Assembly: GCF_000299935.1 (NCBI RefSeq) | Contig: NZ_AMRL01000018.1 | Location: 1 to 64,000 of the forward strand | DNA from: Oceanibaculum indicum P24 | GTDB taxonomy: Bacteria > Pseudomonadota > Alphaproteobacteria > Oceanibaculales > Oceanibaculaceae | Length of the DNA: 64,000 bases | Reading direction: 5' to 3' | Part shown: piece by piece, positions 8,836-38,461 of the stretch | Layout of the letters: the number at the start of each line of letters is the position of its first letter | How positions within the stretch are numbered: the first letter of the stretch is position 1 | Position numbers and translations under genes: made by a program | The notes under the pieces: generated by a model | Seen by the model: only the letters and a program-made list of their open reading frames with translations | Told to the model about the DNA's origin: nothing | Database searches by the model: none

Positions 8836-10368
8836 TCAGGCGGCGGGCGGGGTCCAGACGGTCTGCTCGTCCAGCGGATAGACAGGGCGCGGCAGGCGGG
8901 TCCAGTTGAAGTTGTGGAGTGCGGGCGAGGTCAGGCCGGGGCAATCCACCTCATAGATCCGGTCGGGCGTGAAGAACTCGTCGAAGCCGGCGCGGAAATG
9001 CCCCCGGCTCTTCACCACGAGGCAGCGCACCTTCGACAGATCGACACCGAACAGCTCCAGCTGCATCGGCTCCAGACATTGCTGGCGGTTGGTGATGACC
9101 ACGACCTGCACGCCGCCGACCTGCAGCAACGCCGCCGGCCCCAGATCGCAGGCCATGTCCTGATACATGCCGCGCCGCCCGACGAAGGGACCATCCGCCA
9201 GCGCCAGCACCTCCACCTCGGCGGTGAAGGGCTGCGAGAACTCGTTGCTCTCCCTGGAATTGAAGGTGGCGGTGAAGCGCGTCCCCTTGCCCAGCCGGTG
9301 CGCCTCGGCAGCCAATGCGGGGTCGAAGAACACGCCCAGCGCTGCGCCCTTCGCTCCCGCCTCGACCAGCGCCTTCAGGATATAGATAGTGTTGCCGCGC
9401 CCGCCGCCGCCCGGATTGTCGGCAACATCGGCCAGCAGAACCGGATCGCGCTTCCCCTCCCCGGCAGCGACGGCCAGTGCCACCGCGTCCTCCAGCGAGG
9501 TCATCGGCTTCTTGAAGCGCTCCTTCATCGCCCAGACCTTCTGCGCGATATCCAGCGCCAGCGCACGCGCCGCCGCGCGATTGCCATTGCGCGCCGTCAC
9601 CACGGGCGTGAAGCCGTTCTTCGGGCAGTCGGAGAAGGCGAAACCAGCCATCACCGAAACATTCATGATGTCACCGCCGACCTTGGACTGGCCGTAAGCG
9701 ATCACCTCGCCATAGGGATTGCCCGGCGCGGTCAGCAGCGCGATGGAGGGCGGCACCAACGGCAGCTTCACCATTTCGATGGCGGTCTTGCTGCCGGCCA
9801 GCAACTCGCGCAGATGCTTCGCCGCCTCGACGCCCCGGTCATAGATATCGGTGTGCGGATTCTTAAGATAGCCAACAAAAACCGACACATTATCAATCAT
9901 TTTGCGTGAAATATTCGCGTGCAGATCGAATACAGCGGCAATCGGCAGGTCCGGGCCGACAACGCTGCGGATCGCCTCGAACAGATCGCCGTCCGGATCG
10001 TCGCTGCCGGTCGCCAGCGCCGCACCGTGCGAGGAAATGAAGATGCCGTCGAGCGGCCCGGCCTTGCGCAGCCCATCCAGGATGTCGGCAACGAATTCCT
10101 CGAAATAGGCCTGATCGACCGGTCCGCCCGGCTGCGCCAGCGCGACGCGCAGCGGCACCGGCGTCCAGGGGCCGGTGCGGTCCATCTCCGCGAAGAAGCC
10201 CGGAAGGTCCGGCAGGGTGATGGAGTTCTCCGAGCGTGACTGGCGGACGATCTCCTCGCCGCTGATGTCGGTATCCTCCGCGAAATCCGCCGCCGTCGAG
10301 ACCGGGGAAAAACGGTTGCATTCGATGGCGAAGCCCAGAAGGGCGATACGCGGGTTTTCTGTCGGCAC
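8836..10368 (-). CDS. M81-family metallopeptidase (MlrC-like), copy 2
   Basis: A 510-residue M81 protein starting MPTENPRIALLGFAIECNRFSP. The zinc-site region is VFDLHANISRKM and then LKNPHTD, differing from the DPHCH version in the neighbouring copy. The C-terminal domain has DVADNPGGGGRGN. It is the first gene leftward of the divergent promoter region shared with the importer binding protein. The two tandem M81 proteins are far from identical, so they probably act on different substrates or as an old duplicate pair. The catalytic role is assigned by family only. Confidence 0.84.
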   Translation of the reverse strand: MPTENPRIALLGFAIECNRFSPVSTAADFAEDTDISGEEIVRQSRSENSITLPDLPGFFAEMDRTGPWTPVPLRVALAQPGGPVDQAYFEEFVADILDGLRKAGPLDGIFISSHGAALATGSDDPDGDLFEAIRSVVGPDLPIAAVFDLHANISRKMIDNVSVFVGYLKNPHTDIYDRGVEAAKHLRELLAGSKTAIEMVKLPLVPPSIALLTAPGNPYGEVIAYGQSKVGGDIMNVSVMAGFAFSDCPKNGFTPVVTARNGNRAAARALALDIAQKVWAMKERFKKPMTSLEDAVALAVAAGEGKRDPVLLADVADNPGGGGRGNTIYILKALVEAGAKGAALGVFFDPALAAEAHRLGKGTRFTATFNSRESNEFSQPFTAEVEVLALADGPFVGRRGMYQDMACDLGPAALLQVGGVQVVVITNRQQCLEPMQLELFGVDLSKVRCLVVKSRGHFRAGFDEFFTPDRIYEVDCPGLTSPALHNFNWTRLPRPVYPLDEQTVWTPPAA

Positions 10369-10586
10369 GGGCTGGCTTTCCTAAGGATGGCGGGTCGTAA
10401 CCGCAGCGGACGCCGCGGACAATTTTCTTATGCAAACCCGGCGGCTAACGCAGGTCAACGAACCGATTTGCAGATCAGCGTTCTATTTTGTTGCGCCCCT
10501 GTTTTGCGGACAGCATAGTAAATTAGTCATATTGACAGACAAGTAAGCAAAATATCGATTGAACAGGGATTCCGGAGGGGATGGCG
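10369..10586. promoter_or_regulatory. Divergent promoter region between M81 genes and importer binding protein
   Basis: This 218-bp region is AT-richer toward the right. A TTGACA at 10532-10537 with TATCGA at 10553-10558 (15-bp gap) is a weak sigma-70-like candidate for the rightward gene. The ribosome site GGAGG at 10574-10578 is 2 nt from the first ATG (10581) but 8 nt from the second (10587), so the second is preferred. No clear operator was recognised. Confidence 0.4.
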
Positions 10587-27069: not shown

Positions 27070-29421
27070 ATGAACCTGCCTCTCGGCACCCGACAGGACG
27101 ATGTGGCTATCGGCCATTCCGTGAAGCGCAAGGAAGACCCGAAGCTGCTGCGCGGCGAAGGTCGCTACAGCGACGATATCCGCCTGCCCGGCCAGGCCTA
27201 TGCCGTAATGGTGCGCAGCCAGCACGCGCACGGCACCATCCTGTCCATCGATACCGAAGAAGCCCGCAGCATGCCGGGCGTGCTGGGCATCTATACCGGC
27301 AAAGATCTGGAAGCCGCCGGCTTCGGTGGGCTGAAATGCCTGGTCAGCATCCCCTCGCGCGATGGCGGCGGCATCAAGCAGACGCCGCGCCCGGCCCTGG
27401 CCATGGACAAGGTGCGCTATCTGGGCGACCCGGTGGCCTTCGTGGTGGCGGAGACGCCAGCCCAGGCGCGCGACGCAGCGGAATCCGTCTATGTCGATAT
27501 CGACTCGCTTCCGGCGGTGACTGACGCCAAAGCGGCGCTGGAGGTCGGTGCACCCGTTCTCTATGACGAAGTGCCGGGTAATCTGGCGCTGGACTTCCAG
27601 TATGGCGACAGCGCCAAGGTGGAGGCTGCCTTCGCCTCGGCAGCGCATGTCGTGCGCATGGACATGGCGAACACGCGCGTCGTGGTGAATGCGATGGAGC
27701 CGCGCTCGGCCCTCGCCGAATACGATGCCGATGCCGGCAAATGGACGCTGCATGCCGGCAGCCAGGGCGCCTTCCCTCTGCGCAACCAGATCGCCCGCGA
27801 CATCCTGAAGGTCGAACCGGAGAAGCTGCGTATCCTGACTGGCAATGTCGGCGGCTCCTTCGGCATGAAGGCGGCGGCCTATCCGGAATATCCCTGCGTG
27901 CTGTACGCTGCGCGCGAACTGGGCCGGCCGGTGAAATGGACCGCTGACCGCTCCGAGAGCTTCCTGTCGGACCAGCATGGCCGCGACCATCAGGTGACGG
28001 CGGCGCTGGCGCTTGACAAGGAGGGCCGGTTCCTGGCGCTGAAGATCGACGTGGCAGCCAATCTCGGCGCCTATATCTCCTCGGTCGGGCCGCTGCCGGG
28101 CAGCATGAACATCGTGAAGAATTCGGTCAGCCTGTACAAATTCCCGCTGATCGAGGTGAACAGCCGCTGCGTGCTGACCAACACCACGCCGATCGGCGCC
28201 TATCGCGGGGCCGGCCGCCCGGAATCCAACTATTTCGTCGAACGGCTGATCGACACCGCCGCCGCCGAGATGGGGCTGGACAAGCTGGCACTGCGCCGGC
28301 TGAACCATATCCAGCCCGACGAGATGCCCTATCAGGCGGCTTCCGGGAACAGCTATGACAGCGGCGAGTTCACCGCCCTGATGGACAAGGCGCTGGAAGT
28401 CTCCGACTGGCAGGGCTTCGCCGCCCGCAAGGCCGAGTCGGAAAAGCGCGGCAAGCTGCGCGGCATCGGCATCGGCGACTATCTGGAAGTCACCGCCCCG
28501 CCGGCCAAGGAGATGGGCGGCATCCGCTTCGAGGCCGATGGCGGCGTCACCATCATCACCGGCACCATGGATTACGGCCAGGGCCACGCCACGCCCTTCG
28601 CGCAGGTGCTGGCGCAGAAGCTGGGCATCCCGTTCGAGAAGATCGGCCTGCTGCAGGGCGACAGCGACCAGCTGATCGCCGGCGGCGGCACCGGCGGCTC
28701 GAAGTCGCTGATGGCCAGCGGGGCCGCCATTCTGGAAGCCGCCGACAAGGTCATCGAGAAGGGCCGGGAGATCGCCGCGGCGGCGTTGGAGGCCGCCCCC
28801 GCGGATATCGAATTCGCCGATGGCCGCTTCACCATCGCCGGCACCGACCGCTCCGTCTCGATCATGGAGCTGTCCGGCAGGCTGCAGCGCAAGGAAATCC
28901 CGCTGGGTGGCGCGCCGGACAGTCTGGATGTCAGCCACATCTATGATGCGGCGCCCTCCGCCTTCCCCAATGGCTGCCATGTCGCGGAAGTCGAGATCGA
29001 CCCGGAAACCGGCGTGGTCGAGGTAGTGAAATACACCGCCATCAACGATTTCGGCACGGTGGTGAACCCCATGCTGGTCGAAGGCCAGGTGCATGGCGGC
29101 GTGGCGCAGGGGCTCGGCCAAATCCTGATGGAAACCACGATCTATGATGAGGGCGGTCAGTTGCTGAACGGCTCCTTCATGGATTACGCCATGCCGCGCG
29201 CCGACAACATGCCGGACATCGTGCAGGCCTATCATTCGGTGCCGGCGACGACGAACCCGCTGGGTGCGAAGGGCTGCGGCGAGGCCGGCTGTGCCGGCTC
29301 CATGCCGTCAATCATGAACGCCATCGTCGATGCGCTGTCGCCCTACGGGATCAGGCACATTGACATGCCGGCAACGCCGTTCCGGGTCTGGCAGGCGATT
29401 CAGGCGGCTAAGGCCGCCTAA
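27070..29421 (+). CDS. Molybdenum hydroxylase large subunit (CoxL/XdhB-like, AYRGAGR type)
   Basis: A 783-residue molybdopterin-binding subunit of the xanthine dehydrogenase/aldehyde oxidase family. It begins IGHSVKRKEDPKLLRGEGRYSDDI. The loop over the active site reads AYRGAGR at about residues 377-383, the sequence linked to form II CoxL-like proteins, not the AYRCSFR of true CO dehydrogenase. A conserved glutamate-containing end, GAKGCGEAGCAG, is present. It probably hydroxylates an aldehyde, purine or N-heteroaromatic compound. It runs rightward alone and overlaps the convergent small-subunit gene by 4 bp. No second small or FAD subunit is present, so it may share those of the opposite operon. 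Confidence 0.9.
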   Translation: MNLPLGTRQDDVAIGHSVKRKEDPKLLRGEGRYSDDIRLPGQAYAVMVRSQHAHGTILSIDTEEARSMPGVLGIYTGKDLEAAGFGGLKCLVSIPSRDGGGIKQTPRPALAMDKVRYLGDPVAFVVAETPAQARDAAESVYVDIDSLPAVTDAKAALEVGAPVLYDEVPGNLALDFQYGDSAKVEAAFASAAHVVRMDMANTRVVVNAMEPRSALAEYDADAGKWTLHAGSQGAFPLRNQIARDILKVEPEKLRILTGNVGGSFGMKAAAYPEYPCVLYAARELGRPVKWTADRSESFLSDQHGRDHQVTAALALDKEGRFLALKIDVAANLGAYISSVGPLPGSMNIVKNSVSLYKFPLIEVNSRCVLTNTTPIGAYRGAGRPESNYFVERLIDTAAAEMGLDKLALRRLNHIQPDEMPYQAASGNSYDSGEFTALMDKALEVSDWQGFAARKAESEKRGKLRGIGIGDYLEVTAPPAKEMGGIRFEADGGVTIITGTMDYGQGHATPFAQVLAQKLGIPFEKIGLLQGDSDQLIAGGGTGGSKSLMASGAAILEAADKVIEKGREIAAAALEAAPADIEFADGRFTIAGTDRSVSIMELSGRLQRKEIPLGGAPDSLDVSHIYDAAPSAFPNGCHVAEVEIDPETGVVEVVKYTAINDFGTVVNPMLVEGQVHGGVAQGLGQILMETTIYDEGGQLLNGSFMDYAMPRADNMPDIVQAYHSVPATTNPLGAKGCGEAGCAGSMPSIMNAIVDALSPYGIRHIDMPATPFRVWQAIQAAKAA

Positions 29422-30548
29422 CCGCCAAACAGACGGCGCAGTCGGTCACGCAACACCTGCCAGATCAGGCTGGCGAGGTTCAGCTCCGCCTTTGCGGGTG
29501 CCTGGGCCTCGCCGCCGGTCAGCATGGCGGTAAGGTTAGCGGCGAAAGTCTCGGTCATGCGCCGCGCGAAGTCGGTGACAAGCGCGGAGCGGCCGAACTG
29601 CGCCAGCGGGCCGGTCAGCTTGTAGCGCACCGTGACATCGATGCGCGTGCCCTCGCCCTCCGCCAGCACCGTGTAGGCGATCTCACCCGCGGCCGAGGAA
29701 CCGCCTTTGGCGTCGCGCCCCCTGCCCTTCACCGTACCGGTGCGGGATGAGTCGTCGCGGGCGACCTCGCCCTCGCCGGCGAAGCTGGCCTTGATCGGCC
29801 CGAAGCTGACAGTCAGCGAACCGGTCACGCGGCCGCCTTCCACCGTATCGACTGATGCGCCGGGCAGGCAGGCGGCCATGCGGCGGATGTCACCCAGCGC
29901 CGCCCAGACCTGATCGGCAGGCGCCGGCACCGTCACCTGCTGCGTCAGAACGGAGAACCCGTCGCCAGAGGTGCTGAAATCCATCGGTGCGGCTGCCGGC
30001 GCAACTGGCGCTGACTCGACAGCAACAGAAGCGGCAGCCGTTTCCGCGCGCGCCTCGAAGGACCAGTTCTGCGGCTGCGGCTGGCGGCCCTTCGCCACCT
30101 GCCGTATCGCCCCGACGATGCCGACATAGCCGGTACAGCGGCAGATATTCCCCGACAGTTCCCGCCGGATCGTCTCCTCATCCACATCGCCCAGCCGGGT
30201 GACGATGTCGCGTGCCGTCACCAGCATGCCCGGCGTGCAGTAGCCGCACTGCAGCGCATGATGCGCGGCGAAGGCCTCGCGCAGTTCCGCCATCACCGCG
30301 TCACCGTCGAAGCCCTCGACCGTGCGGATGTCGTCGCCATTGCAGGATACCGCGAAGGTCAGGCAGGAGCGCTGCGGCATGCCATCGACCAGCACGGTGC
30401 AGGCGCCGCACACACCCTGCTCGCAGCCCAGATGCGTGCCGGTCAGGCCGAGTTCGCCGCGCAGGAAATCCGCCAGATGGGTGCGCGGTTCCGCCTGTCC
30501 GCTGACCTTGCGGCCATTGACGGTCAGCTCGATGGGGTGCGCGGTCAT
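29418..30548 (-). CDS. Fused [2Fe-2S] small subunit and CoxG-like SRPBCC protein of molybdenum hydroxylase
   Basis: A 376-residue fusion. Residues about 1-160 form a CoxS-type subunit with CEQGVCGACTVLVDG for the plant-type cluster, and CGYCTPGM and CRCTGYVG for the second cluster. A linker rich in Ala/Pro spans about 165-200. The C-terminal part is a CoxG-like SRPBCC domain (VTVPAPADQVWAALGDIRRMAACLPGA). In CO dehydrogenase systems CoxG is a separate membrane-anchoring factor. The hydrophobic tail LASLIWQVLRDRLRRLFGG could anchor the enzyme. It overlaps the FAD-subunit gene upstream by 4 bp. Confidence 0.9.
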   Translation of the reverse strand: MTAHPIELTVNGRKVSGQAEPRTHLADFLRGELGLTGTHLGCEQGVCGACTVLVDGMPQRSCLTFAVSCNGDDIRTVEGFDGDAVMAELREAFAAHHALQCGYCTPGMLVTARDIVTRLGDVDEETIRRELSGNICRCTGYVGIVGAIRQVAKGRQPQPQNWSFEARAETAAASVAVESAPVAPAAAPMDFSTSGDGFSVLTQQVTVPAPADQVWAALGDIRRMAACLPGASVDTVEGGRVTGSLTVSFGPIKASFAGEGEVARDDSSRTGTVKGRGRDAKGGSSAAGEIAYTVLAEGEGTRIDVTVRYKLTGPLAQFGRSALVTDFARRMTETFAANLTAMLTGGEAQAPAKAELNLASLIWQVLRDRLRRLFGG

Positions 30549-31336
30549 TGCTGAGCCTCCGCAAGGGCTTCAAGGGCGCGGCGGACAGCGATCCTGTGCA
30601 GCTGCCGCGCCGAAGGTGGCCGATCCGACAGGCGCTCATCGATCTCGGCGGCGGCGGCTTCGGCGTCGCACGCCTCCAGCAGCAGCGGCGTGACCTCGAC
30701 CGCGCCGCACACCAGCCGGAACACGCCGCGTTCCGGGTCGCTGACCACGGCACCGGTGGCCTTGGCGAATTCACCCGTCTTGCGGCAGATCTTGTAATAG
30801 CCCCAGCGCGCCGAGGCGGACAGGCGCGGCACCGACACGCCGGTGATCAGCTCGCCCGGCTGCAATATTGTCGTGAAACCGCCAAGCATGAAGCGTTCGA
30901 CCGGCCAGGCGGTCTCGCCCTTCTTCCCCCGCACGATCACCCGCGCATCCAGCGCCATCAGCGTGGACACCCAGTCCGCCGCCGGGTCGGCATGGGCGAG
31001 GCTGCCGCCGATGGTACCGCGGTTGCGCACCGCGCGGTAGGCGATACCGCCCGCGACATGGCGCAGCATCCCGTTCGTGCCGTCCGGCACCGCGCCATCC
31101 TCGAAGGCCGCATGCGGCAGAGCAGCACCGTAACGGATGGCGTCGGGAGTCTCGGACACCGCGAGCAAATCCGGCTGGCGGCGGATATCGACCAGCGACG
31201 CCGGCCGCGCGAGGCGCAGATTCAGCATCGGCGTCAGCGACTGACCGCCGGCGATGGGCTTGGCCTCGTCCGACAGGGCGCTGAGAGCGGCGGACAGATC
31301 GGCGGGCTTGGTATAGTCGAAGGCGGCAGGTTTCAT
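30545..31336 (-). CDS. Molybdenum hydroxylase FAD-binding subunit (CoxM-like)
   Basis: A 263-residue FAD subunit of the CoxM family. FAD motifs are AGGQSLTPMLNLRLARP near residue 32 and TIGGSLAHADPAAD near residue 110, both diagnostic. The CO_deh_flav_C region follows. It passes electrons from the [2Fe-2S] subunit to an acceptor. It overlaps both neighbours by 4 bp (ATGA), placing large subunit, FAD subunit and iron-sulfur/CoxG fusion in a tight leftward operon. Length is slightly below the usual 270-290 residues. Confidence 0.92.
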   Translation of the reverse strand: MKPAAFDYTKPADLSAALSALSDEAKPIAGGQSLTPMLNLRLARPASLVDIRRQPDLLAVSETPDAIRYGAALPHAAFEDGAVPDGTNGMLRHVAGGIAYRAVRNRGTIGGSLAHADPAADWVSTLMALDARVIVRGKKGETAWPVERFMLGGFTTILQPGELITGVSVPRLSASARWGYYKICRKTGEFAKATGAVVSDPERGVFRLVCGAVEVTPLLLEACDAEAAAAEIDERLSDRPPSARQLHRIAVRRALEALAEAQQ

Positions 31337-33693
31337 TCGGCGGCCTGCTTGGTTTGCGCGGCGAAGATGGCGTCGAGGATGCGCTCCGGCGTGGCCGGTA
31401 TCTGGCCGATCTCCGCCCCATATTCCTTCAGCGCATCGTTGATCGCGTTCACGATGGCCCCGGCAGGCGCAATGGCCCCGCCCTCGCCCACGCCCTTGAT
31501 GCCATGCGCCGAATAGGGCGACAGCGTCTCCATATGGCCGATGCGGAAGCCGGGCAGCTCGGTCGGGCCGGGCAGCAGGTAATCGATCAGCGTCGAAGCC
31601 AAAGGCTGGCCGGCGGAATCATAGGGGCTTTCCTCGAACAAAGCCGTGCCGATGCCCTGCGCCGCCCCGCCATAGGCCTGGCCCTCGACGATCATCGGGT
31701 TCACCATCTGCCCGCAATCCTCAACGATCACATAATCCAGGATGTCGACCATGCCGGTCTCGGCATCGAGCGCGACCAGCGCCGCATGCGTGGCATAGGA
31801 GAACACGCCGCTGTCGACATCCGGCTTATAGCCCTGCGTGACTTCCAGCCCGTTGGTGTCGATATCGTCCGGTAGCGTCTCGGGCCTCAGATACCAGGCC
31901 TTGCCGACATCGGCGAAGGACAGGCTGGCCTCCCCGGCATGGATGCGGCCATCGCGGAACGCCACATCCTCCGGCTTGCATTGCAGCAGATGCGCGGCCA
32001 GCCGCTTCACCCGGCCGGCCAGCTCGGTCGCCGATTTCGACACCGCACCGCCGGCCATGACAATGCCGCGCGAGGCATAGGCGCCGGTCGAATAGGGCGT
32101 GCTGGCGGTATCGCCCAGCTTCACCGCGATATCCTTCAGGGGGATGCCGAGCGCCTGGTTGGCGACCTGCGCCAGCGTGGTTTCCAGCCCCTGCCCGATG
32201 GTGTGGATGCCGGCACGGACCTCCAGCGTGCCGTCGGCCAGCAGCTTCACCGTCGCCTGCTCGAACCCCGGCACCAGCGGCAACCCCCAGGCGGCGAACA
32301 CCTTGGTGCCATGCGCCGACTGCTCGGTATAGGTGGCGAAGCCGACGCCGATACGCCGGCCGTCCGGCTCCCGCCCCTTCTGGCGTTCGCGGATGGCGTC
32401 CAGCGCGATCATCTCCCGCGCCTTGGCCAGGCTGCCGGGATAATCGCCGGAATCGTAATGCTTGTTGGTGACGTTGGTGTAGGGCATCTGCGCCGCCTGC
32501 ACCAGATTCTCGGCCCGCACATCCACCGGCTCCCGCCCGACGGCGCGGGCAATCGCGTCGATGGTCAGCTCGATGGCGAAGCACACGCCGGGCCGTGCCA
32601 CGCCGCGATAGGGCGCAAAGGGCGGCTTGTTGGTCGCCACCGAATAGGTCCGTGCCCGATAGGCCCGGAAATCGTAGGGCCCCGGCAGATTGCCCCCGGC
32701 CTGCGCCGCCTCCAGACAGGCCGAGAAGGGCCAGACCGAATAGGCGCCGATATCGACATTGATCTCCGCATCCAGCCCCAGCAGCCGGCCGCGCTCGTCA
32801 GCATAGGCGGTGACCTTGTAGTGATGCTGGCGGGCATTGGCCCCGGCCACCAGATGCTCGCGCCGGTCCTCGACCCAGCGATAGGCGCCCTTGCGGGTCA
32901 TGGCGAGCCAGGCGACGGCTACCTCCTCCGGCTGCAGCAGGCATTTATAGCCGAAGCCGCCGCCGACATCGGGCGGGCTCACACGCACACGCGACTGGTC
33001 GAGCCCCAGACACTCCGACAGGCCGGTGCGGATCAGGTGCGGCACCTGGGTCGAGGTGATGACGACCAGCTGGTCGGCCTGAAAATCCCAGTAGGCGACC
33101 AGGCCCTTGCCCTCCATCGGGTGCATGCATTGCCGGGCGGTTTTGTATTCCCGCACCACCTTCACCGGGGCGGTCTTCGCCACCTCCTCGATACCGCTGT
33201 CGAAATCGGTGACGAGGCAGAGATTGTCGCCCCACTCCTCATGCACCAGCGGGGCATCCTTCGCCTTGCCCAGTTCGCTTTCGGTCACCGCCGGCAGTTC
33301 GTCGAAATCGACGGAGACCAGCTCCGCCAGATCCTCCGCCTCGGCCCGGCTGGGGGCAACGCACAGGGCAATGCCCTCGCCGACATAGCGCACCTTCTCA
33401 TGCGCCAGCGGATAATAGGAGGACAGCTTGTAGCCCGGCAGGCTGGACCGGGTGACGATGGGCTGGACGCCTGCCATGTCGGACCAGAAGAACACCTGAT
33501 CCTCTCGCCCCTGCGGCTTGGCGAGGCTACGGAGTCGGGCATGCGCGACGGGGCTGCGCAGGAAGGCGACCTCCAGCATCCCCGGCAGCTGGATATCGCC
33601 GACAAACCGCCCACGCCCCATCAGGTGGCGGGCATCCTCCTTGCGGCGGACACGGGCGCCGATCCCCTCTCCCTCAACCGTTGAAGCCGCCAT
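31333..33693 (-). CDS. Molybdenum hydroxylase large subunit (second copy, PYRGVAR type)
   Basis: A 786-residue molybdopterin-binding subunit, first gene of a three-gene operon. It starts GIGARVRRKEDARHLMGRGRFVGD. The active-site loop reads PYRGVAR at about residue 361-367, differing from both the CO dehydrogenase loop and the AYRGAGR loop of the other large subunit. The C-terminal motif GIKGVGEGGAIAP contains the catalytic-type glutamate. It likely hydroxylates a carbonyl or heteroaromatic substrate at the Mo centre using water. Substrate is unknown. A MarR gene is divergent from it, with several repeated motifs in the 204-bp gap. Confidence 0.9.
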   Translation of the reverse strand: MAASTVEGEGIGARVRRKEDARHLMGRGRFVGDIQLPGMLEVAFLRSPVAHARLRSLAKPQGREDQVFFWSDMAGVQPIVTRSSLPGYKLSSYYPLAHEKVRYVGEGIALCVAPSRAEAEDLAELVSVDFDELPAVTESELGKAKDAPLVHEEWGDNLCLVTDFDSGIEEVAKTAPVKVVREYKTARQCMHPMEGKGLVAYWDFQADQLVVITSTQVPHLIRTGLSECLGLDQSRVRVSPPDVGGGFGYKCLLQPEEVAVAWLAMTRKGAYRWVEDRREHLVAGANARQHHYKVTAYADERGRLLGLDAEINVDIGAYSVWPFSACLEAAQAGGNLPGPYDFRAYRARTYSVATNKPPFAPYRGVARPGVCFAIELTIDAIARAVGREPVDVRAENLVQAAQMPYTNVTNKHYDSGDYPGSLAKAREMIALDAIRERQKGREPDGRRIGVGFATYTEQSAHGTKVFAAWGLPLVPGFEQATVKLLADGTLEVRAGIHTIGQGLETTLAQVANQALGIPLKDIAVKLGDTASTPYSTGAYASRGIVMAGGAVSKSATELAGRVKRLAAHLLQCKPEDVAFRDGRIHAGEASLSFADVGKAWYLRPETLPDDIDTNGLEVTQGYKPDVDSGVFSYATHAALVALDAETGMVDILDYVIVEDCGQMVNPMIVEGQAYGGAAQGIGTALFEESPYDSAGQPLASTLIDYLLPGPTELPGFRIGHMETLSPYSAHGIKGVGEGGAIAPAGAIVNAINDALKEYGAEIGQIPATPERILDAIFAAQTKQAAE

Positions 33694-33717: not shown

Positions 33718-33887
33718 TTATGCGGTATGCTGACTTTTATCCAGGGGCCTGTCAATCGAGCGGCGAAGCGCCGCAGGCGGCTTTTTGAATAGCCAAACCA
33801 AGGATTAGACCGCATTATCGGACCCAAGAATCAGTCTCAAGGCAAGTAATGCGGCATCGGAAATTCCAATGGAATGCCGCCTATCGG
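33718..33887. promoter_or_regulatory. Divergent regulatory region with repeated ATGCGGYAT-like motifs
   Basis: Four copies of a related motif lie between the large-subunit and MarR genes: TTATGCGGTATGC (33718), inverted ACCGCATTAT (33809), TAATGCGGCATCGG (33847) and inverted GAATGCCGCCTATCGG (33872). Four copies in 170 bp of otherwise ordinary sequence suggest operator sites for the MarR regulator controlling itself and the operon. Confidence 0.5.
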
Positions 33888-33897
33888 GAGAAACCGC

Positions 33898-34422
33898 ATG
33901 GCGGTCGAAAAGAAACTGGCATCAGAGGCGCCGCAGGCCGAGGGCAATGAGGACAGCCTCATCATGTCGCGCATGCCGCTCTGGGCGCGGCCGGGCTATC
34001 TCGTACGCCGGCTGCACCAGATCCATTACGCACTGTTCTTCGAGGAATGCGCTGCCTTCGACATCACGCCGGTGCAGTACGGGCTGCTGACCACGCTGGC
34101 GCAGAATCCCGACATGGACCAGAACTCGCTGGGCCGCGAACTCGGCATCGACCGCACCAATGTGGCCGATGTGCTGAACCGGCTGGCCAAGCGCGGGCTC
34201 GTCGCGCGCGAGCGCAGCAAGACCGACCGCCGTATGGTGCTGTGGCGGCTTACGACCGAGGGCGAGAAGATCACCGGGGAAATGTACGAGGCGATGCAGC
34301 GCGCCCAGATGAAGCTGATGGAGCCGCTGCGGCCGGAGGAGCGTAACGCCTTCGTCACCATGCTGATGCGGCTTGTGGACGGCAACAACCATCTGGGCCG
34401 CACGATTTTCCGGCCGAGCTGA
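33898..34422 (+). CDS. MarR-family transcriptional regulator
   Basis: A 174-residue winged-helix regulator. The central region shows DITPVQYGLLTTLAQNPDMDQNSLGRELGIDRTNVADVLNRLAKRGLV, a helix-turn-helix with recognition helix near RTNVADVLNRL, then the wing RERSKTDRRMVLWRLT. MarR proteins usually repress catabolic or efflux genes and release DNA upon binding an aromatic ligand. It is divergent from the molybdenum hydroxylase operon. ATG at 33898 has GGGAGAAACC upstream. Motifs in its own leader recur before the Rieske operon, hinting at a shared aromatic-degradation regulon. Confidence 0.92.
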   Translation: MAVEKKLASEAPQAEGNEDSLIMSRMPLWARPGYLVRRLHQIHYALFFEECAAFDITPVQYGLLTTLAQNPDMDQNSLGRELGIDRTNVADVLNRLAKRGLVARERSKTDRRMVLWRLTTEGEKITGEMYEAMQRAQMKLMEPLRPEERNAFVTMLMRLVDGNNHLGRTIFRPS

Positions 34423-34555: not shown

Positions 34556-35080
34556 TCACACCGGATAGACAACCGAATTGTCGATCAGCAGATTGTCGTA
34601 CACCGTGCGGCGTTCCTTCAGCTTCAGCGCGCCGCCGGTCCGCACGAACACATCGTAATAGGTGCCGATCTGATGCAGTGTCGGCTCCGGCCGGTCGAAC
34701 AGCGTCTGCAGCAGGATGTAGTTCGATGTGGCGACGATCTCGCCGTTCGCGCGGGTCTCGACCACCCGGCAATTCGAAATGAAATGCCGCATGTAGCGCG
34801 GCGCGAACATCGCCGTCTTCTCGATGGCGAAGATGCGGTCGCGCAGCATGCCCTTGCCCTCGCAATAGATCAGCCCGACCGGCAGGCCGCTGGCAAAATT
34901 CTCCCGCGCGGTGATGACGTAGAGCGCATCCTCCGCAAACAGCTCCGGCCAGTCCGAGAGCGGGCCATTATCCAGCACATCCGCATAGGCGGCGTTGAAC
35001 TCCTCGATCTCCTGGCGCAACAGCAGCCGGTCGATCAGCGCGTCAGACGCGGCGGGGTTTTTCAGCGAAGTCACGGTCAT
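34556..35080 (-). CDS. Aromatic-ring-hydroxylating oxygenase beta subunit
   Basis: A 174-residue small subunit with the NTF2/cystatin-like fold of ring-hydroxylating oxygenases. The start LLLRQEIEEFNAAYADVLDNGPLSDWPELFAEDALY is typical (key residues EEFN and FAEDA). The central region is RYMRHFISNCRV. It has a structural role in an alpha3-beta3 complex with the alpha domain encoded 11 bp upstream. I chose the ATG at 35080 for its GGAGCAACGAC leader. It closes the oxygenase operon and is followed by a palindrome pair. Confidence 0.92.
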   Translation of the reverse strand: MTVTSLKNPAASDALIDRLLLRQEIEEFNAAYADVLDNGPLSDWPELFAEDALYVITARENFASGLPVGLIYCEGKGMLRDRIFAIEKTAMFAPRYMRHFISNCRVVETRANGEIVATSNYILLQTLFDRPEPTLHQIGTYYDVFVRTGGALKLKERRTVYDNLLIDNSVVYPV

Positions 35081-35091
35081 GTCGTTGCTCC

Positions 35092-37938
35092 TCAAACCCC
35101 GATGACATCGCGCCAGTGCTTGTACATGGCGCGGATCGCGGATTCCGAAATCAGCGTGTCGGCGGTTCCGGTCGCCGTGCCGGGGTCGAGCGCCACCAGA
35201 TGCTCGCCGCCCGGCACATGCTTCATGCCGTCCTGCACGAACTTCATCGCCTCATTATCCTCCAGCCCCAGGAAGCCGGCCGGCCCCATCAGATTGCCCT
35301 GGCGCAGCCGGTGACGGGTCATCTCCTCGTCATCGCCCTCGAAGCCGAACATGGTCCAGATCATGGTGAACTGGTTCGGCCCTTCCGGCACGATATGGCG
35401 CACGCCCAGCGTGTTCATCTCGCGCTGCACGATCAGGTTCGGCCAGATGGTGGACATGGTGACCGACCAGGGCGAATCGAACTCCGGCACGAAATCCATG
35501 AAGCGCGGCTCTTCCAGCTGCATGCCTTCCTTGTAGGCGCGCATCTCCTTCTTGGCGTCGGCGCTCACATTCTTGCCGTCCGACTTGGCGGAGCACATGG
35601 CGCCGTGCCGTCCGCTGGCATCGCACAGCATCTGCGACTTGTTGCCGGCAACCAGCAGCCCGAAGGTGACCAGGAAGGTGTGCAGCAGCGTCGCGTGATA
35701 CGGGTCCTTCAGATTCTCGTGATAGAGCTTCCAGTTGCCCGGCAGCGTGTTGCGGTAATAGCCCAGCACCACCAGCTTGCGGCCATCGAAGGTGGCGTCG
35801 AATTCGCGCGTCATTTCCGGCCCGAGATAGACGTCGAACGGCTCCATATCCTCGGCATAGGAGGCGAAGATCACCCCGCCGCGCGTGGTGACGGAAAGCT
35901 TACGCGGATGATGGTCGGCGGGGTCGAAATCCGCCGGCATGCCGCCCTTGCCATCGACGCCGCGGCGGAACGGGACACCCGCCAGATTGCCCTTAAGGTC
36001 ATAGGACCATTGATGATAAGGGCAGACGAATTCCTGCACATTGCCGCGCAGTTCGCGGCAGAACTCGGCAGCGCGGTGCGAGCAGCGATTCTCGAAGACA
36101 TTGATGCCGCCTTCCTCGTCGCGTGACACCACCACCGGCACCGGACCGACGAAGGAGCGGGTGAAGTCGCCCGGATTGGGAATTTCGGCTTCCAGCCCGA
36201 CATAGTTCCAGGTGCGGCCCTTGAAGATCTTCTCGACCTCCAGCCCGTAGATATGATCGTCGGTATAGACCCAGTCGGGCACGCGGTTCAGGCCTTCGGC
36301 CGGCCAGACAAACTGCTTCGCCTGAGGGGCAGCCTGCTCCGGCAGGCTCTCCAGCGCACGTTCATAGCCCATGGAACTCTCCTCCTCCTGCTGGTCCAGC
36401 CAGCGCAATCCCCGCAGACCCTCGGCGACATCAGCCCCGGTCTCCAACCGCCGCCGCGCAATGCGGAAGGTCTCCGCATCGCCGAAGATGATGGCGCTGG
36501 CGATGGCACCGTCGCGCTCTGTCAGATAGACCGATTCCGGCTGGCCGATCCCGCCCTGCACCGCCACCCGGTCGCCGGCCTGCGGAATGCCGGCCATCTG
36601 GATATTGAGGCCAAACTGCTCGGTCCAGAACCAGGGCAAGGGCGGCTTCTCCGCCGGCTTTCCCAGCATGGCGCGCGCGGCGGCGCGGCCCTGTGCCTCC
36701 GCATTGGCCCAGCTTTCCAGGCGGATACGCGCACCGGCAACCGCTTCGGGATAGAGCGCGCAATCACCCGCCGCGAAGATATCGGCATCCGAGGTGCGGC
36801 AGGCCGTGTCGATAACGATGCCGCCCGATTGCACGGACAGGCCGGCCTGTTCCGCCAGCTCCGTATTGGCGATGGCGCCGATGCCGGCGACGACTAGATC
36901 GGCGGTCAGATCGCCGCCATCGGCGAAGGCCAGCGTCGTCCCCGCACCGTTGCGGCGGATCGCCTCGATCTTCGTGTCCAGCCGAAAGGCAACGCCCTTC
37001 GATTCGGCCAGCTTCTGGAAAGCTTGCCCCAGCGCCGGCGGCAGGATGCGCGACATCAGCGCCGGCTCACGCTCGATCACCGTGACGTCCAGCCCCTTCT
37101 CGCGCGCGACCGAGGCAATCTCCAGCCCGATGAAGCCGCCGCCGATCAGCGCCAGGCTGCGCGCCCGCGACAGGGCCGTACCGATGGCCTGTGCGTCCTC
37201 CAGCGTGCGCAGATAGAGCACGCCATCGCCGCTTCCGTCTGGCAGCGTCCGCGCCCGCGCACCGGTGGCAATCAGCAACCGATCATAGGGCAACGTCTCG
37301 CCGGTCGAGAGCGTCACCGATTTCGCCTTGCGGTCGATGGTGCTGGCGCGCGTACCGGTGCGCAGATCGACGTCTAGCACATCGAACTCGGCCGGCTTCA
37401 GCACGGCGCAATCGGCGGCACCGGCCTTGCCCAGCAGCACCTCCTTGGACAGCGGCGGCCGTTCGTAGGGGCGATGCCCCTCCTCCGCGATCATGACGAT
37501 ACGGCCGGTGAAGCCCTCGCCGCGCAGATGCTGCGCCGTGCGGCAGCCGGCCTGACCGCCGCCGATAATGACGAAACTCCGGTGATCCTGTGACAGCCCT
37601 GCCTTCGGTGCCTCAACTTCAACGGCGGGCGCCTCCAGATCGACGAAGATGTCGTCGCCCTCGCGCTTCACCTGATAGGTGGCGAGCCGTCCGGTGACCG
37701 GGGCGCATTGTGCCTTGCCGGTGCGGATATCGAACTGGCCCTGATGCAGCGGGCATTCGATGCAGCCATCCTCGACATAGCCCTCCGACAGGAAGGCGAA
37801 CTGGTGGGTGCAGATATTGTGGGTGGCATACACCACGCCATCGAGCAGATAGAGGGCGACCGCTGTGCCGGCGACATCGACGCCGATGACACCGCCTTCC
37901 TTCAGATCGTCGAATGACGCTGCGCGCAGCCAGCCCAT
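35092..37938 (-). CDS. Single-ORF Rieske ferredoxin - ferredoxin reductase - ring-hydroxylating oxygenase alpha subunit
   Basis: One frame of about 948 residues joins three proteins that are normally separate. Residues 1-105 are a Rieske ferredoxin (CTHQF and CIECPLH). Residues 120-510 are a BphA4-like reductase with VIIGGGQAGC, ALIGGGFIGLE and AAGDCALYPE. Residues 523-948 are an oxygenase alpha subunit with NRCSHRAAEFC and VCPYHQWSYD for the cluster, and NLKDPYHATLLH for the iron (D-x2-H-x4-H). The last part resembles salicylate 5-hydroxylase-type large subunits. No stop separates reductase and alpha part, but a strong ribosome site precedes Met523, so a free alpha subunit is probable as well. 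An assembly error that removed a stop codon is an alternative. The start at 37938 is uncertain. Confidence 0.85.
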   Translation of the reverse strand: MGWLRAASFDDLKEGGVIGVDVAGTAVALYLLDGVVYATHNICTHQFAFLSEGYVEDGCIECPLHQGQFDIRTGKAQCAPVTGRLATYQVKREGDDIFVDLEAPAVEVEAPKAGLSQDHRSFVIIGGGQAGCRTAQHLRGEGFTGRIVMIAEEGHRPYERPPLSKEVLLGKAGAADCAVLKPAEFDVLDVDLRTGTRASTIDRKAKSVTLSTGETLPYDRLLIATGARARTLPDGSGDGVLYLRTLEDAQAIGTALSRARSLALIGGGFIGLEIASVAREKGLDVTVIEREPALMSRILPPALGQAFQKLAESKGVAFRLDTKIEAIRRNGAGTTLAFADGGDLTADLVVAGIGAIANTELAEQAGLSVQSGGIVIDTACRTSDADIFAAGDCALYPEAVAGARIRLESWANAEAQGRAAARAMLGKPAEKPPLPWFWTEQFGLNIQMAGIPQAGDRVAVQGGIGQPESVYLTERDGAIASAIIFGDAETFRIARRRLETGADVAEGLRGLRWLDQQEEESSMGYERALESLPEQAAPQAKQFVWPAEGLNRVPDWVYTDDHIYGLEVEKIFKGRTWNYVGLEAEIPNPGDFTRSFVGPVPVVVSRDEEGGINVFENRCSHRAAEFCRELRGNVQEFVCPYHQWSYDLKGNLAGVPFRRGVDGKGGMPADFDPADHHPRKLSVTTRGGVIFASYAEDMEPFDVYLGPEMTREFDATFDGRKLVVLGYYRNTLPGNWKLYHENLKDPYHATLLHTFLVTFGLLVAGNKSQMLCDASGRHGAMCSAKSDGKNVSADAKKEMRAYKEGMQLEEPRFMDFVPEFDSPWSVTMSTIWPNLIVQREMNTLGVRHIVPEGPNQFTMIWTMFGFEGDDEEMTRHRLRQGNLMGPAGFLGLEDNEAMKFVQDGMKHVPGGEHLVALDPGTATGTADTLISESAIRAMYKHWRDVIGV
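36370..36388 (-). promoter_or_regulatory. Internal Shine-Dalgarno and in-frame ATG for the oxygenase alpha subunit
   Basis: GGAGGAGGAGAG occupies 36377-36388 and an in-frame ATG follows at 36370-36372. The distance is near optimal. It encodes Glu-Glu-Glu-Ser within the long frame, directly at the domain boundary. Starting here gives 426 residues, the usual length of a free alpha subunit. Confidence 0.75.
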
Positions 37939-37972
37939 CTCTTCAAGCCCGTCCTGCCGTGACAATAAGATC

Positions 37973-38019
37973 AGTATGCCGCCTATTTTTGGTCCCATCA
38001 AGCGGCGCATGCGGCACGG
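37973..38019. promoter_or_regulatory. ATGCCGCCTAT motif and related copy upstream of the Rieske operon
   Basis: ATGCCGCCTAT at about 37976-37986 is identical to the 11-base core before the MarR gene (33874-33884). A second copy, CATGCGGCAC, lies at 38009-38018. Both sit between the Rieske operon and the divergent monooxygenase-like gene, which suggests shared control. Confidence 0.45.
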
Positions 38020-38089: not shown

Positions 38090-38461
38090 ATGGCCCAGGA
38101 ACCCCTGGCGACGAAGGGCAATTTCCTTCACATCTACGATTTCCGCATCAAGCCGGGCACCGAGGCCGAATTCATCCGGCTGTTCGAGGAATTCGACTAT
38201 TCCGACGGCAATCCGATGCACAAGAGCTGGGCCCAGGTGAAGGACGGCGTGCTGTGCCGCGACACAGAGGACCCGTTGCGCTTCTTCCTGATCGCCGAAT
38301 GGTCGGACATCAAGGAACATGCGGCGATCCGCAAGATCCTGGCGGAAGAGATCAAGCCGGAATTCATCAAGTTCATCGAGGGCGGCAAGTTCATCCCGAA
38401 ATATGTCGAGGTCGTCTCCTCCACGCCCGAGGAAATCCTGAACAAGGCGGCGGGGGAGTAG
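38090..38461 (+). CDS. Antibiotic-biosynthesis-monooxygenase-like (ABM-fold) small protein
   Basis: A 123-residue protein with a probable dimeric alpha-beta barrel (ABM) fold. FLHIYDFRIKPGTEAEFIRLFEEF and the later FFLIAEWSDIKEHAAIRKIL match strands and helices of that group. ABM proteins include quinol monooxygenases and small accessory enzymes of aromatic degradation. Activity here is unproven. ATG at 38090 is preceded by AGGAGGCATCAGC. It is divergent from the Rieske operon and shares its control region, so it may act on the hydroxylated product. Confidence 0.7.
   Translation: MAQEPLATKGNFLHIYDFRIKPGTEAEFIRLFEEFDYSDGNPMHKSWAQVKDGVLCRDTEDPLRFFLIAEWSDIKEHAAIRKILAEEIKPEFIKFIEGGKFIPKYVEVVSSTPEEILNKAAGE

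Follow-up and report, generated by a model that had tools for sequence, protein, structure and literature searches.

The window analysed here, a 64,000-nucleotide stretch of the Oceanibaculum indicum P24 genome (contig NZ_AMRL01000018.1, positions 1 to 64,000), carries on its minus strand a single stop-free frame (37938 to 35092) encoding a protein of 948 aa (103.1 kDa). ORF and Pfam analyses identified a Rieske ferredoxin, a ferredoxin-NAD reductase and a Rieske oxygenase alpha subunit within this one gene. With its upstream extension, the open frame spanned positions 35092 to 38010 of the minus strand (972 aa in the ORF listing), and the ATG at 37938 is the probable start of the fused gene, giving 948 residues. 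On the plus strand, stop codons were present in the corresponding frame. In the 972-aa numbering, the order of the Pfam domains was Rieske (27-112), Pyr_redox_2 (146-441) and Reductase_C (460-529), followed in the C-terminal part by a second Rieske match and Ring_hydroxyl_A (752-970).

In the 948-residue protein, the Rieske-type ferredoxin domain (residues 1-100; 37639-37938, minus strand; Pfam Rieske) had as its nearest solved structure the naphthalene dioxygenase ferredoxin (2qpz), and its Rieske ligands (C43, H45, C62 and H65) were kept in 100% of the 46 fusions described below. It was followed by a flexible linker without an internal start (linker 1; residues 101-120; 37579-37638, minus strand; low pLDDT at 107-116) and by a glutathione-reductase-type ferredoxin-NAD reductase domain (residues 121-505; 36424-37578, minus strand; PF07992 and PF14759). 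The latter possessed FAD and NAD Rossmann motifs at residues 126 and 266 and a C-terminal Reductase_C domain, the nearest solved structures being putidaredoxin reductase (1q1r), 1d7y/BphA4 and 3ef6/TodA. A second linker, between reductase and oxygenase (linker 2; residues 506-544; 36307-36423, minus strand), was predicted to be disordered on the basis of pLDDT.

The oxygenase alpha subunit (35092-36372, minus strand) was recognized by Pfam, by ligand conservation and by its top PDB match, salicylate 5-hydroxylase NagGH (7c8z). The Rieske ligands of its CxH...CxxH motif (C619, H621, C639 and H642) and its iron motif (D745-x2-H748-x4-H753) were invariant across the 46 fusions. D894 was invariant as well, and is likely the third iron ligand, as inferred from alignment with biphenyl dioxygenase. 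The nearest named NCBIfam families, anthranilate dioxygenase AndA and phenylpropionate dioxygenase Hca components, all remained under the cut-off. Overall, with a Rieske motif, an iron motif and an adjacent beta gene, the gene meets the criteria for an alpha3beta3-type Rieske non-heme iron oxygenase, the third aspartate ligand being inferred. The covalent joining of all electron-transfer domains to the catalytic subunit is inferred from sequence alone.

The beta subunit gene (34556-35080, minus strand; 174 aa; Pfam Ring_hydroxyl_B; PDB relatives 3eby and 7c8z_B) began at ATG 35080, 11 bases after the alpha stop, with its own Shine-Dalgarno sequence (GAGGAG), and a beta homologue adjoined all 46 fusions. 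As this separate gene lies directly downstream, the fused chain comprises the electron chain and the alpha subunit, not the whole enzyme.

Further downstream were located a MarR-type regulator, a homologue of the MarR gene found in pic clusters (33874-34422, plus strand; Pfam and neighbourhood comparison) and the three subunits of a PicA-like molybdenum hydroxylase, all on the minus strand: the large subunit (31333-33693; Pfam and neighbourhood comparison), the FAD subunit (30545-31336; homology) and the [2Fe-2S] subunit (29418-30548; homology). In this last protein, a CoxG domain was fused at the C-terminus of the same chain. A second molybdenum hydroxylase large subunit (27070-29421, plus strand; 783 aa) was convergent to this first cluster, with no obvious small subunits beside it. 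On the other side of the fused gene, a divergent neighbour (38090-38461, plus strand) encoded a small ABM-like protein conserved beside one group of these oxygenases. This protein, of about 123 aa, was a conserved neighbour of 22 fusions and also of many separate oxygenases; its gene and the picD-picG genes did not occur together in the fused loci checked. It may mark a different downstream pathway.

A scan of bacterial genomes with the window protein as query yielded 80 loci. In total, 46 genes, from about 43 distinct genomes, had ferredoxin, reductase and oxygenase in one stop-free frame. This set includes the window gene, three further genomes of the genus and one Paracoccus seriniphilus plasmid gene (L106), and a few of its members are probably copies from the same genome. 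The fusion was also present on finished replicons (the chromosome of Xanthobacter sp. YC-JY1, L040, and the Paracoccus seriniphilus plasmid), and its carriers included Bradyrhizobium, Xanthobacter, Azospirillum, Roseomonas, Tistlia and Ferrovibrio, as well as, outside Alphaproteobacteria, the gammaproteobacterial Alloalcanivorax and one Saccharospirillum bin. The lowest whole-protein identity to the window protein in the aligned set was 57%. Two metagenome records titled Mesoflavibacter and Flavobacteriales (L029, CP051228.1; L077, NHFY01000066.1) contained genes grouping with proteobacterial relatives, and these bins are likely misnamed or contaminated. The scan was biased toward near relatives and gives no frequency estimate. 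Among 399 evenly drawn Pseudomonadota whole genomes (own genome excluded), two matched at the threshold, both with full-length open frames (985 and 956 aa); the fusion is a sparse but widely spread trait.

Across the 46 fusions, 252 residues were invariant, including all eight Rieske ligands and the Asp-x2-His-x4-His motif. Within the genus, dN/dS was low in all three parts (0.10-0.19 for the ferredoxin, 0.15-0.24 for the reductase and 0.08-0.14 for alpha), linker 2 having higher values than the domains. None of the 46 fused genes had a stop codon at the junction, which was open in all four genomes of the genus. These results bear on the initial annotation, which had placed the three components in one uninterrupted frame at 35092-37938 (without stating the strand, which is minus), with a junction near 36372 and intact cluster and iron ligands indicating a gene that was not decayed. 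All of these claims held, the junction ATG lying at 36372-36370. It had also proposed a search for homologues with the same fusion, which returned the 46 genes (window included), and had named a junction stop codon or frameshift in close homologues as a refutation; none was found. Artefact or gene decay was ruled out by the 46 open fused genes and the invariant ligands.

The origin of the fusion was inspected in a tree of the alpha subunit (a quick tree with midpoint root, from which L106 was left out). All the fusions fell within one clade of 59 rows (SH-aLRT 100), and the rows just outside it included loci with separate, neighbouring genes for the three components (L058, L062, L064, L067 and L093). 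The split relatives nearest to the fused clade had the picB1-B4 layout of the picolinate pathway. In Variovorax (L109), three CDSs (among them the reductase at 9330-10583 and the oxygenase from 10611) were followed by beta, an amidohydrolase and a 2,5-dihydroxypyridine dioxygenase, while in Caballeronia SBC2 the ferredoxin, reductase and alpha were in the same frame, parted by stops. A single fusion event by stop loss is the simplest and likely reading; the fusion presumably became fixed a single time, in an ancestor, and has been retained by many Alphaproteobacteria and by some Gammaproteobacteria. Inside the fused clade, six genes lacked the reductase, with the ferredoxin still joined to alpha, and eight consisted of alpha alone, without ferredoxin and reductase in the gene; most of these fourteen came from metagenome bins. 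Since such relatives exist within the clade, the tether is not indispensable. The six reductase-less relatives (L045, L046, L047, L048, L050 and L054), in which the ferredoxin is directly fused to the oxygenase, were all from metagenome bins, and four of them formed one clade within the fused clade.

At the reductase-oxygenase junction, which reads caggaggaggagagttccATG in the window, an internal Shine-Dalgarno sequence (AGGAGGAGGAG; 36379-36389, minus strand; anti-SD energy -12.1 kcal/mol) was located 5' of an in-frame ATG (36370-36372, minus strand; residue 523 of 948). Initiation at this ATG would yield a free alpha subunit (426 aa, 48.0 kDa). A junction ATG was present in 39 of the 46 full fusions, and in-frame in 43 of 51 fused genes when reductase-less forms were counted (45 with and 6 without reductase). 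As seven full fusions had no junction ATG, a free alpha product cannot be universal. The junction ATGs had a median anti-SD energy of -8.1 kcal/mol, compared to -2.5 kcal/mol for 1047 other internal ATGs of the same fused genes (p = 3e-21), and a pairing of -6 was reached by 86% of the former but only 9% of the latter.

When the seven codons preceding the ATG were replaced by synonymous ones, sampled according to the codon usage of the gene in question, the observed junction pairing was stronger than that of the recoded sequences in 36 of 39 full fusions (p = 1e-5 on 21 clade means), whereas the same test at 909 control ATGs showed no excess (+0.35 kcal/mol). Moreover, the linker peptides before the junction ATG were wholly different among clades (EEESS-M, LRRGT-M, GRGDET-M, SEISA-M), so that conservation of a single peptide does not account for the start signal. 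The ferredoxin-reductase linker, taken as a control, had an ATG in only 11 of 46 fusions, with weak ribosome-binding energies (-5.6 at best), and an internal start at this position is unsupported. In the reductase-less fused forms, the strong junction signal was mostly absent. A sigma-70 promoter scan around the junction returned one coding-strand match only, downstream of the beta gene and at chance level. Some caution is needed with the junction signal, as the clades are related to one another, the better of two ATGs was taken where both were present, and there are no translation data; part of the signal may also have been inherited from the split operon.

Although expression, assembly and activity are inferred, the gene most likely gives rise to two products that co-assemble with beta: the covalent electron chain of 103 kDa and a free alpha subunit of 48 kDa. 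In the Paracoccus seriniphilus gene table, the fused gene was begun at an internal ATG (L106, 10567-11814) and labelled as alpha subunit only, with the fused frame open upstream of the annotated start. Such trimming of gene calls may help to explain how the fusion could be overlooked.

AlphaFold2 predicted a confident reductase and confident parts of alpha, joined by a low-confidence stretch (residues 517-557; pLDDT <50). As the pTM was 0.49, the model was used for domain boundaries and linker disorder only, the placement of the domains relative to each other being uncertain. The low-confidence linker predicted by the model would fit tethered domains that are mobile. The usual docking site of Rieske ferredoxins is the boundary between alpha and beta (PMC9361823). 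A relaxed docking lysine (K117 in CumDO) was considered as a sign of tethering and rejected, with lysine present in 29 of 46 fusions and variable in separate forms too; as the residue varies in both, the sequence is silent on whether docking has changed.

Overall, the most likely reading is a natural PicB-type fusion that has a covalent electron chain and, in the majority of its members, a conserved start within the gene. The fusion itself, its conservation, the ligands, the single clade and the start signal are shown, the remainder being inferred. In the proposed mechanism, NADH would reduce the FAD of the reductase domain, and electrons would move on from FAD through the tethered Rieske ferredoxin and the Rieske cluster of alpha, finally reaching the mononuclear non-heme iron. 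Alpha and the separate beta protein would together form an alpha3beta3 complex. The internal ribosome-binding site and ATG carried by most members would also yield free alpha, and the complexes would mix fused and plain alpha, leaving the electron-carrier domains substoichiometric to the active sites. That both products are expressed, that they assemble together, that electrons flow within the chain and that NADH drives self-sufficient turnover are all inferences, without any expression, proteomic or biochemical data. A bolder reading, a self-sufficient Rieske oxygenase whose donor-to-active-site ratio is set by translation from one gene, is favoured by a modest margin. The initial annotation had suggested a covalent electron chain to the oxygenase, which is supported by the sequence, the electron flow being inferred. 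Two additions are needed: the three components do not make a complete enzyme, as a separate beta subunit follows, and the product of about 48 kDa, proposed as the alternative to one of about 100 kDa, is probably made as well, from the conserved internal start.

The substrate is inferred from gene context. In pic clusters, picolinate is the substrate of PicA and 6-hydroxypicolinate that of PicB (PMC10142695). A PicA-like molybdenum hydroxylase and a PicR-type MarR gene adjoin the window fusion; among the 46 fusions, a MarR homologue was found nearby in 33 and a molybdenum hydroxylase large subunit in 22. Maleate isomerase was present at thirteen fused loci, most of which carried other pic genes too, and in Paracoccus seriniphilus the fused gene is part of a complete pic cluster. 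In this cluster, a gene annotated as 'leucyl aminopeptidase' (L106, 2243-3274) matched 2,5-dihydroxypyridine dioxygenase. The window alpha fell in a clade including pic-cluster genes (Azospirillum L012/L014, L015 and L022), and PicB orthology was judged by this clade membership, without a characterised PicB sequence for direct comparison. The Paracoccus gene was not part of the tree, but matches in architecture and context.

No 2,5-dihydroxypyridine dioxygenase was found in three Oceanibaculum genomes, in a search that did detect its positive controls, and PicC had only a weak match. The canonical pic pathway thus seems not to continue here. No PicC-G homologues were found near the window gene, PicE, PicF and PicG being covered in this neighbourhood only. 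The gene belongs to a separate group of fusions with an ABM-like neighbour and without maleate isomerase or the pic genes that accompany it elsewhere. The enzyme is therefore regarded as PicB-like, and its probable substrate, at about even odds, is a hydroxylated pyridine carboxylate, which the adjacent molybdenum hydroxylase would make.

Among the rival explanations, the one that survives best concerns the substrate only: instead of a pyridine hydroxylase, the enzyme could be an aromatic-acid oxygenase, of the salicylate 5-hydroxylase type or another. In its favour are the best solved relative (NagGH), the absence of a detectable 2,5-dihydroxypyridine dioxygenase in the three Oceanibaculum genomes and the different neighbour, the ABM-like protein, that marks the window group. 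Against it, pic clusters contain homologues of both the neighbouring molybdenum hydroxylase, with its three subunits, and the MarR gene, and related fusions occur within complete pic clusters. On balance it is credible but not the favoured option.

According to a second rival, the 103 kDa fusion is the sole product, and the junction Shine-Dalgarno sequence and ATG are a nonworking relic of the split-operon start. The oxygenase gene does start at the same place in split relatives such as Variovorax, and seven full fusions have no junction ATG. However, the signal persists over 21 clades with wholly different linker peptides, the pairing exceeds the synonymous-recoding expectation, and no start survives in the ferredoxin-reductase linker, although its origin is the same. 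This explanation is unlikely. Less probable still is proteolysis of the translated fusion, in which a cut in the disordered linker would separate ferredoxin-reductase from alpha and leave an ordinary multi-component enzyme. Although the linker is predicted to be disordered and varies in length and sequence, it has no visible conserved cleavage motif; cleavage would leave the conserved ribosome-binding site unexplained, and stop codons would serve equally, as they do in the split relatives. Finally, a sequencing or assembly error, or a recent stop loss in one strain, has no supporting evidence and is all but excluded by the 46 fused genes in independent assemblies, finished replicons and all four genus genomes included.

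Returning to the preferred reading of a natural PicB-type fusion, its parts are all known, and the covalent arrangement and predicted dual products are new as far as could be found in the open-access literature. A 2025 review in Biochemistry stated that no self-sufficient Rieske oxygenase had been identified and discussed engineered fusions only (PMC12445004), and no described natural Rieske oxygenase fusion was found in the open-access literature searched (subscription papers and preprints excluded). Rieske oxygenases are wanted as biocatalysts, and their separate redox partners limit coupling and use. The roughly 43 natural, evolution-tested fusions, with their varied linkers and reductase-less forms, offer working designs. 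Simple one-to-one fusions may be poor for a reason that the internal start hints at, namely that the fused subunit is apparently diluted with free alpha in nature, and the family makes it testable how many electron-donor domains are needed per alpha3beta3 oxygenase.

The closest known system is PicB, the 6-hydroxypicolinate monooxygenase of Alcaligenes faecalis JQ135 and Bordetella (picB1B2B3B4), which has the same four functions as the window system. PicB is encoded by four genes, whereas the first three are in one frame in the window; the pic-type clusters contain split homologues (ferredoxin, reductase, alpha and beta in Variovorax L109) with PicA and a MarR gene nearby. The downstream 2,5-dihydroxypyridine genes of the PicB pathway were not found in the Oceanibaculum genomes searched. 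NagGH (7c8z) is the closest solved oxygenase for the window alpha (449 bits, 44% identity in structural alignment) and the second closest solved relative for beta. The substrate of NagGH is salicylate, and its ferredoxin and reductase are separate proteins. NagAa and NagAb are named in PMC6559018.

Class IIB systems (biphenyl, toluene and cumene dioxygenases) also combine a glutathione-reductase-type flavoprotein reductase, a Rieske ferredoxin and an alpha/beta oxygenase. Their components are separate, transiently docking proteins (PMC9361823), whereas those of the window are covalently linked and do not meet the separate-polypeptide criterion. Engineered Rieske oxygenase fusions (Runda, Miao and Schmidt 2024, cited in PMC12445004) likewise have covalently linked redox partners, but are artificial; attenuated activity and coupling have been noted for fused Rieske systems (reviewed in PMC12445004). 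The self-sufficient P450s CYP102 and CYP116B carry the oxygenase and its reductase chain in one polypeptide. These enzymes, also discussed in PMC12445004, use haem and are complete in one chain, whereas the window enzyme has non-heme iron, needs a separate beta subunit and has a predicted internal start.
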